This document shows, piece by piece, positions 61,027-63,174 of a stretch of 64,000 nucleotides of DNA. Under the pieces are notes generated by a model. That model was not told the DNA's origin, searched no databases, and saw only the letters and a list, made by a program, of their open reading frames with translations. Where the stretch lies: positions 2,875,001 through 2,939,000 of the forward strand of contig NZ_CP146350.1 in NCBI RefSeq assembly GCF_037055355.1, written 5' to 3'. This DNA is from Streptomyces sp. DG1A-41. GTDB taxonomy: Bacteria > Actinomycetota > Actinomycetes > Streptomycetales > Streptomycetaceae. How positions within the stretch are numbered: position 1 is the first letter of the stretch; the number at the start of each line of letters is the position of its first letter. The position numbers were made by a program, and so were the translations under genes.

Positions 61027-63174
61027 CTACTTCCCCTTGTGCCCGGACTTGCCGCGGCCCTTGTGGGCGCCGTTCTGGGTGCCGTGCTTGGTGTCGTACT
61101 GCTCGTACGCGTCGACGATACGGCCCACCAGCTTGTGCCGGACCACGTCGTGGGACGACAGCCGGGAGAAGTGGACGTCCTCGACGCCGTCCAGGATGTC
61201 CTGCACCTGCCGCAGCCCGCTCTTCGTCCCGTCCGGGAGGTCGACCTGCGTCACGTCACCCGTGATCACGATCTTCGAGTCGAAGCCGAGGCGGGTGAGG
61301 AACATCTTCATCTGCTCGGGGCTCGTGTTCTGGGCCTCGTCCAGGATGATGAAGGCGTCGTTGAGCGTGTTGTGCGTCAGCAGGTGGTCCTGGGTGACGT
61401 ACAGCGAGTCCTCGGCCGCCACCTGGATGCAGACGGTCTCCTCCCTGCCCGCCGGTTCGATGCTGTCAATGAAGCGCATCGGGCGTCCGCCGCCTCCGGC
61501 CGCGTGGTACTTGTCGCGCTTGCGGGCCAGGCGGAAGGGGTCGATGCCTTCGGGGAGGCGGATGTCGATGATGTGGGCGTCGTTCCGGAGACCGACCTCC
61601 CGACCGTTCCCGAGACCGGGCTTACGCCCTGCCGCGAGGCGCCGACGCGTATACGCGACACCGCCGAGCGACCGCACGAGCGAGATCACGTCGTCGCGCA
61701 GCATGATCGAGGTGGTCGTGTACTGGATACGGCAGGTGCGGTCCTTCCGCACGACCGGGCCGCCGTCGGAGTCGAGGAGACCCTGCAGGACGCCCAGCCG
61801 TACGTCGGCCGAGTTGTACAGGTAGTCGTCCGGGATGAACTTGGTGTGCGAGCGGGTACGCAACAGGTCCAGTTCGCGCAGGACACGAGGGACCGGATTC
61901 TCCAGCGTGACCACGTCGCCCGGTGCCTTGACCCGGTTGAGCGCGTAGTCCGGGCCACCGCGGTGCCGTACCGCGATGCCGGGGAGCGCGGCTTCCAGGG
62001 CCGTGGCCAGCTCCGGGTCCTCCGTGGAGAAGGACGGCGTGGTTGCACCGGTCAGGCATCCATCACCGAGCAGCAGTCCCAGCGCGTACGGGTCCAGCGG
62101 GACCTCACGCTCAGGGAAGCACACCGGCGCCGTGAGCAGCGGCAGCTCGTACCGACGGGCGTGTCCGGCCCGCAGATTGCCGATCATCTCCTGGGTCTCC
62201 AGGACCCGCCACGGCTTGTCGCGGCGCTTGTCGTCGCGCGCCCTGACCGTCCACAGGTGCTCGCCGCAGCACAGCGTCCAGGAGCCGTCCTGGGCCGTGA
62301 CGCGGTAGACGTCCTTCTCGCCTTGCGGGTAGACGCCGAGAACTGGGGTCGGCTCGCCGTTCGAACCGATGACGAGGTCACCAACCTGAAGGTCGCCGAT
62401 AGGGCGCCAGCCGTCCGGTGTGAGGACGTTCGTGAAGAGCGGCTGCGCACGGCCTCTCATATAGGCCAGCGGTGCCACCTCAATAGTCCCCGCCGCCATC
62501 AGCCGGGGAATCGAGTCCGGGTCGAGCATGTCGTGCAGCGCGTCGTAGAGCGGGCGCAGGTACGGGTCGATCTTCTCGTACAGCGTGCCCGGAAGGAAGC
62601 CGAGCCGCTCTCCCGCCTCGACGGCCGGGCGGGTCAGGATGATGCGGTTGACCTGCTTGGACTGGAGGGCCTGGACGGCCTTGGCCATCGCCAGGTACGT
62701 CTTGCCGGTACCCGCGGGGCCGATGCCGAAGACGATCGTGTGCTTGTCGATCGCGTCCACGTAGCGCTTCTGGTTGAGCGTCTTGGGGCGGATCGTGCGG
62801 CCTCGCGAGGACAGGATGTTCTGCGTGAGCACCTGGGCAGGGGTCTCCTGGCCGTCGCTCTCCCCGTTCTCGCTCGCCTTGAGCATGGCGATCGAGCGTT
62901 CCACCGCGTCCTCCGTCATCGGCTGTCCGGTGCGGAGCACCAGCATCATCTCGTCGAACACGCGGGCGATGAGGGCGACGTCCACGGGGTCGCCGACCGC
63001 GCTGATCTCGTTGCCCCGGACGTGGATGTCGGCCGCCGGGAAGGCCTTCTCGATCACGCGCAGGAGGGCGTCGCCTGACCCCAGCACGGTCACCATGGGG
63101 TGCTGGGCGGGGACGGTGAACTGTGCTCTCGCCTGCTCCTGCGCGGGGGTGTGAGCTGTGGGTGTCTGTGTCAT
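61027..63174 (-). CDS. phoH: PhoH-family ATPase interrupted by an in-frame intein
   Basis: Precursor of 715 residues. The host PhoH (355 residues after splicing) has an N-terminal KH-like region ([12 protein letters not shown]), Walker [14 protein letters not shown] near residue 150 and, after the intein, Walker [14 protein letters not shown] plus [10 protein letters not shown]. The intein splits PLAYMRGR and TLNDAFI, between Walker A and B, so the ATPase is inactive until splicing. The host C-terminus is Lys/Gly/His-rich. PhoH is an RNA-linked P-loop ATPase; YbeY follows in the same operon. ATG 63174 was chosen by homology; no other coding frame competes. Confidence 0.94.
61369..62448 (-). 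other. LAGLIDADG intein in PhoH, class 3 features
   Basis: Exactly 1080 nt (360 residues, 243-602 of the precursor). It begins with Ala ([25 protein letters not shown]: block A) and ends with His-Asn (LLTHN) before host Thr. Block B reads CGEHLWTV, giving a Trp at the class 3 position but no T-x2-H. Block F carries Cys ([14 protein letters not shown]), and Thr precedes the terminal HN. This Trp-Cys-Thr set with a non-nucleophilic first residue is the hallmark of class 3 inteins. The homing-endonuclease motifs [13 protein letters not shown] and [13 protein letters not shown] keep their acidic residues. Confidence 0.9.

Follow-up and report, generated by a model that had tools for sequence, protein, structure and literature searches.

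A class 3 intein in the PhoH protein of Streptomyces sp. DG1A-41, with signs of horizontal mobility and a probable upstream codon footprint

The window analyzed here, a stretch of 64,000 nucleotides from the chromosome of Streptomyces sp. DG1A-41 (NCBI RefSeq assembly GCF_037055355.1, contig NZ_CP146350.1, positions 2,875,001 to 2,939,000), contains a phoH gene that is interrupted in frame by a 360-residue insert. We are highly confident that this insert is a class 3 intein of full length that moves horizontally. The class 3 PhoH intein is a recurrent, apparently still moving element of Streptomyces, in which 24 of 150 genomes carry it (that of DG1A-41 included), and of other Actinomycetota. 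In addition, the last codons of the N-extein appear to follow the relationships of the intein over those of the remaining phoH gene.

The intein and its host gene

The insert lies between Arg242 and Thr603, starts with Ala1 and ends with LLTHN (Table 1); the frame and the coordinates 61369..62448 proposed for it in the initial annotation are exact. Without the insert, PhoH consists of 355 residues and has a computed mass of 38.8 kDa, close to the 38 kDa predicted there. Pfam PhoH (PF02562) matches in two stretches flanking a LAGLIDADG_3 match (33.4 bits, cut-off 22.5), the solved PhoH-like chain 3b85 can be aligned on both sides of the insert (to residue 243 and from residue 603), and the PhoH domain is complete once the insert is removed. 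The insert is not a product of chance, because its sequence matches inteins in PDB (6riz, E 9.6e-13), E <= 0.001 is reached by 5631 of the 7993 proteins scored against it, and the MRGR/T site (slash, insertion point) is uninterrupted in all 46 intein-free Streptomyces phoH loci fetched. Among the 120 best matches listed, the named proteins are mostly annotated as PhoH family or PhoH-like protein. The same genome also encodes an intein-free PhoH-like paralogue of 521 residues (L003, 574-2139; around G000:C1:5919006-5919548), which has THIRGRSLHDAF at the equivalent site.

Table 1. Coordinates of the phoH intein, its parts and neighbours, and of the RecG intein used for comparison (positions in the window unless a genome coordinate is given).
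Feature	Position	Strand	Basis or remark
PhoH frame, 715 aa	61027-63174	-	Open reading frame list
PhoH N-extein, residues 1-242, P-loop ATPase half, C-terminal end ...PLAYMRGR	62449..63174	-	Pfam PhoH 128-243; homologous to 3b85
Last 15 codons of N-extein, rare-codon tract tracking the intein over the rest of phoH (probable co-conversion footprint)	62449..62493	-	
Class 3 intein, 360 aa, frame residues 243-602	61369..62448	-	
Block B His64-Leu65-Trp66 (Trp of the WCT triplet)	62251..62259	-	H64 and W66 in 110/110 distinct PhoH inteins
LAGLIDADG motif 1, LGLLLGDG, residues 123-130, acidic D129	62059..62082	-	D129 in 108/110
LAGLIDADG motif 2, LQGLLDSDG, residues 221-229, acidic D228	61762..61788	-	D228 in 108/110; LAGLIDADG_3 match
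Block F Cys340, predicted initiating nucleophile	61429..61431	-	Cys in 110/110
Block G Thr358-His359-Asn360	61369..61377	-	Each in 110/110
PhoH C-extein from +1 Thr603, includes ILDEAQ, with stop codon	61027..61368	-	
Frame directly 3' of phoH, putatively ybeY-like (initial annotation)	60515..61012	-	Open reading frame list
recG locus, L002 547-3846	G000:C1:6558069-6561365		
Class 3 intein in the RecG P-loop (GSGK/T), 338 aa	G000:C1:6559023-6560054		NCBIfam RecG

Class 3 inteins are defined by Trp at B:12, Cys at F:4 and Thr at G:5, the Trp-Cys-Thr (WCT) triplet (PMC5222942; PMC3196547; papers are cited by PMC number throughout). The triplet is present in the window intein as Trp66, Cys340 and Thr358, within a complete class 3 signature: His64, a penultimate His359, a terminal Asn360, Thr603 at the +1 position (Ser or Thr in this class) and Ala1 at the N-terminus, where class 3 inteins require no Cys, Ser or Thr. 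The corresponding motifs are GEHLW (His64 and Trp66) in block B and VCIQV (Cys340) in block F. Each feature on which the initial annotation had based its assignment, namely the Ala start, the HN end, the block B Trp, the block F Cys, the Thr before HN and two LAGLIDADG-like motifs with acidic residues (D129 and D228), is thus found in the sequence. The predicted structure of the intein is confident (mean predicted local distance difference test score, pLDDT, 90.5) and matches PI-SceI over its full length; the best structural match among mini-inteins is the class 3 DnaB intein of Mycobacterium smegmatis, and the model has the Hint fold with the Cys-His-Thr active site of this class.

Residue conservation was assessed in 130 intein-containing and 46 empty loci, with 110 distinct PhoH inteins. 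His64, Trp66, Cys340, Thr358, His359 and Asn360 are present in all 110, and the +1 residue is Thr in 109 and Ser in one. The length is 357-361 aa in 117 of the 130 loci and never below 331 aa. Position 1 is Ala in 87 distinct inteins and Ser in 23. The proposed lack of an N-terminal nucleophile therefore holds for the window intein (Ala1) but is not fixed in the family. Sequence, structure model and conservation make class 3 the best reading of the window intein, in agreement with the initial annotation, and splicing is predicted from the family.

Distribution and horizontal mobility

In the 24 Streptomyces genomes with the intein, the PhoH match runs through it, and in the remaining 126 the best PhoH match halts at the junction; the 46 empty loci are a subset of these 126, in the choice of which close relatives were favoured. 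Across the class, an intein match of at least 58% identity is found in 25 of 394 genomes, and at all 25 loci the intein directly follows PLAYMRGR. A tree of phoH exteins was constructed with the junction region omitted (137 rows, 93 intein-containing and 44 empty; 690 columns; rows trimmed to fixed lengths without alignment). Intein presence changes at least 28 times on this tree, 14 of the changes being forced by starred branches, with gain and loss indistinguishable. The window phoH allele groups with two empty alleles (support 99), and extein and intein relationships conflict, for example for L061 with L037 and L070.

This patchy distribution, the empty sites in near relatives, the incongruence between intein and extein and the 5' flank described below provide good support for horizontal movement of the intein between related soil bacteria, and they also support the recent mobility suggested in the initial annotation. 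That suggestion had been drawn from active endonuclease motifs. Both LAGLIDADG motifs indeed retain an acidic residue, which is consistent with mobility, and the activity itself is a prediction from sequence; the endonuclease would copy the intein into empty phoH alleles. As a further observation, synonymous sites in the pairs L007/L005 and L026/L014 are near-identical in the middle and 3' part of the intein and strongly diverged in the first 60 intein codons and the 5' flank, a pattern that likely reflects recombination breakpoints inside the intein.

Codons preceding the insertion site

Codon usage around the junction was compared between 111 intein-containing and 44 empty loci (94 and 44 distinct alleles), leaving out the empty loci L196 and L200, intein-containing loci with a C-extein start unlike TLNDAF (e.g., L041, L059, L083 and L138) and L050. 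The mean relative codon weight at codons -5 to -1 is 0.33 in intein-containing alleles versus 0.57 in empty ones, and at -10 to -6 it is 0.59 versus 0.81. The gap shrinks further upstream (0.83 versus 0.94 at -30 to -21; 0.81 versus 0.85 at -40 to -31), and downstream of +5 there is little difference. Among 28 path-disjoint pairs on the best tree (L057, L070 and L079 also omitted), codons -10 to -1 are less adapted in the intein-containing member in 21 and more adapted in 7 (Wilcoxon p 0.0013), and the bins -60 to -31 and -110 to -61 and those from +1 to +60 are not significant. In partial Mantel tests on the 94 alleles, codons -15 to -1 correlate with the intein (r 0.25, p 0.0005) but show no such relation to the remaining phoH gene (r 0.03, p 0.30), whereas codons -30 to -16, -60 to -46 and +1 to +15 (for the last, r 0.12, p 0.0015) follow the rest of phoH. 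The closest phoH to that of the window, the empty allele L127, differs from it at 10 of 14 synonymous codons upstream and at 0 of 15 downstream. Nine alleles have at most five upstream differences from the window, eight of them intein-containing and one empty (L171). The very rare codons ACT (-13), ATT (-12) and AGA (-3) occur in 5, 10 and 3 of the 94 intein-containing alleles, respectively, and in none of the 44 empty ones. From these patterns the flank appears to be DNA carried along in homing, mostly on the 5' side, over about 45 bp or 15 N-extein codons; transfer of the intein would bring in this last part of the upstream extein, and the downstream side at most weakly.

The DG1A-41 genome encodes another class 3 intein, located in RecG, which serves as an internal comparison. 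The 26 distinct RecG inteins are 263-339 aa in length, and the residues equivalent to D129 and D228 are kept in 18 and 19 of them, respectively; these sequences indicate that the RecG family is losing its endonuclease motifs and decaying. Raw means for 26 intein-containing and 46 empty recG alleles, compared without phylogenetic pairing, give no consistent difference in the flank: codon weight is 0.45 in both groups at -5 to -1, 0.59 versus 0.68 at -10 to -6, and 0.72 versus 0.58, in the opposite direction, at -15 to -11. On these unpaired means, the idea that a rare-codon flank is a general property of inteins was rejected. With a footprint in phoH and no consistent one in recG, the footprint is associated with the intein that has an apparently intact endonuclease. 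One genome thus offers a natural contrast: the PhoH intein combines intact endonuclease motifs with a transfer footprint, and the RecG intein, whose relatives are losing these motifs, has none.

Several results weigh against co-transfer of the flank. A sign test confined to starred branches (14 pairs) points in the same direction but is not significant (median p 0.34 at -5 to -1, 0.22 at -10 to -6 and 0.25 at -20 to -11), and its downstream control, +11 to +30, leans likewise (4.0 versus 1.3 pairs, median p 0.45); the flank result consequently rests on the 28 pairs of the best tree and the Mantel test, in which the correlation is modest. Codons +1 to +15 also show a marginal association with the intein (r 0.07, p 0.05). 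The upstream flank of the empty allele L171 is as near to that of the window as several intein-containing flanks are. Between L070 and L061 the flank codons differ by 0.36, more than the intein (0.08) or the far extein (0.13), which simple co-transfer does not explain. Lastly, the synonymous difference at -5 to -1 is about 0.66 between intein-containing alleles at any host distance; this exceeds what simple co-transfer predicts, and selection on the flank codons may thus be at work.

Such selection, for instance for slow translation at the junction or for escape from the endonuclease, would account for codons that are diverse yet often rare, as well as for this constant difference of about 0.66. 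We nevertheless regard selection in place of co-conversion as rather unlikely, because the flank tracks the intein relationships, the three very rare codons are confined to intein-containing alleles and the RecG intein has no consistent flank effect. Co-conversion could be embodied in a polar mode of homing, which we put forward tentatively: each transfer would overwrite some 45 bp of conserved phoH in the upstream half-site, and seldom the downstream half-site. Repeated invasion from different donors would make the synonymous codons before the junction change together with the intein and more quickly than other parts of phoH, an effect that an arms race of the endonuclease with empty alleles may have intensified. 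Should the one-sided footprint hold true, it would provide a simple DNA trace by which past homing could be sought at other inteins. Intein-like rare codons also precede the site in the empty alleles L176 and L126 (e.g., AGG GGA AGA in L176) and are perhaps the scar of intein loss.

Predicted splicing of the PhoH precursor

In the predicted reaction, Cys340, assisted by His64 and Thr358 in the pocket that Trp66 forms, would attack the Arg242-Ala243 peptide bond, giving the block F branched intermediate expected from the family. The N-extein would then be passed to Thr603, Asn360 would cyclise with the assistance of His359, and an acyl shift would yield the 38.8-kDa PhoH. The intein is located between the P-loop and the ILDEAQ region, and the unspliced precursor is therefore probably inactive. 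That PhoH needs class 3 splicing, as the initial annotation put it, is only an inference from the position of the insert.

Splicing might serve as a regulatory switch on PhoH, for example by redox control via Cys61, which may lie near the catalytic Cys340, but we consider such a switch improbable. Conditional splicing has been published for the mycobacterial DnaB intein (PMC6195587; PMC7360933); in this class 3 intein of M. smegmatis, oxidation leads one of the intein Cys residues to pair with the catalytic one (PMC6195587), and Cys61 is present in 100 of the 110 distinct PhoH inteins. However, the DnaB pair involves a different, non-conserved residue, Cys48, and at the block B site corresponding to position 61, Thr is found in TxxH and Asp in DnaB intein 1 (PMC6195587). 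This residue is Ser in nine and Thr in one of the 110 PhoH inteins and Cys in 9 of 13 aligned viral rows (from 18 loci), so that it resembles an ordinary active-site variant. A PhoH-specific Cys61 redox switch was accordingly reduced to a weak rival.

It is also improbable that the intein is an inert relic, incapable of both splicing and homing. The endonuclease acids are altered in 3 of the 110 relatives (D129H in L015, D228G in L007 and both in L155), but the catalytic residues are invariant, the length is near-constant and PhoH is intact around the intein. The ratio of nonsynonymous to synonymous substitution (dN/dS; 47 disjoint nearest pairs) is also low, with values of 0.10 in the splicing domain and 0.20 in the endonuclease of the PhoH intein, compared with 0.03 in the far N-extein and 0.15 in the C-extein. 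Class 1-like splicing, initiated by position 1 or another residue with the WCT triplet incidental, is likewise very improbable: Ser1 in 23 distinct relatives could in principle be a class 1 nucleophile and the His-Asn end and +1 Thr fit class 1, but Ala1 stands in the window intein and in 87 of the 110 distinct inteins, the triplet is invariant, the closest mini-intein fold is class 3, and Cys F:4 is reported to be absolutely required in three class 3 inteins (PMC5222942).

Relation to known inteins

Class 3 PhoH inteins have already been published from mycobacteria, and the window intein is a further example of this known, less common type. Those of M. fortuitum (PhoHi OBK00716) and M. xenopi (PhoHi EID13626) have been aligned (PMC6195587), and PhoH of M. 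smegmatis has one intein (PMC7360933). A search of an open literature collection, from which most subscription papers are missing, yielded no account of a PhoH intein in Streptomyces. Inteins from virus-labelled IMG/VR contigs (L085-L099) are 31-40% identical to the window intein; the class 3 triplet is present in all 13 that were aligned, and several lie in P-loop-like motifs (GLGK/T, GVGK/T and GCGK/T). The DG1A-41 genome has a third intein, in a ThyX-type protein (Pfam Thy1; L272, 898-2586, around G000:C1:6720591-6721229) with Intein_splicing and HNH matches, which is probably class 1, judged by eye from its Cys start and HN end.

Relatives of the window intein occupy the same PhoH site in the 130 fetched loci, Mycobacterium lacus among them: the L141 intein is 100% identical over its length to an M. 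lacus protein, and it shares the MRGR/T site with the window intein, to which it is 68% identical. Residue 61 is Cys in the window intein and Ser in L141, L143 and L144. The published mycobacterial PhoHi (PMC6195587) have the host protein and class 3 in common with it. The M. smegmatis DnaBi1 (6bs8) and M. chimaera DnaB1 (6rix/6riy) inteins are likewise class 3, but are located in DnaB, with solved chains of 125-131 residues; DnaBi1 is without an endonuclease and carries Asp in place of Cys61 (PMC6195587), whereas the window intein has both LAGLIDADG motifs. The RecG intein of the same genome shares the class 3 signature, Ala1 and the +1 Thr with the PhoH intein at 40% identity but, unlike it, sits in a P-loop. 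What the window intein contributes is evidence that homing is horizontal and apparently one-sided.
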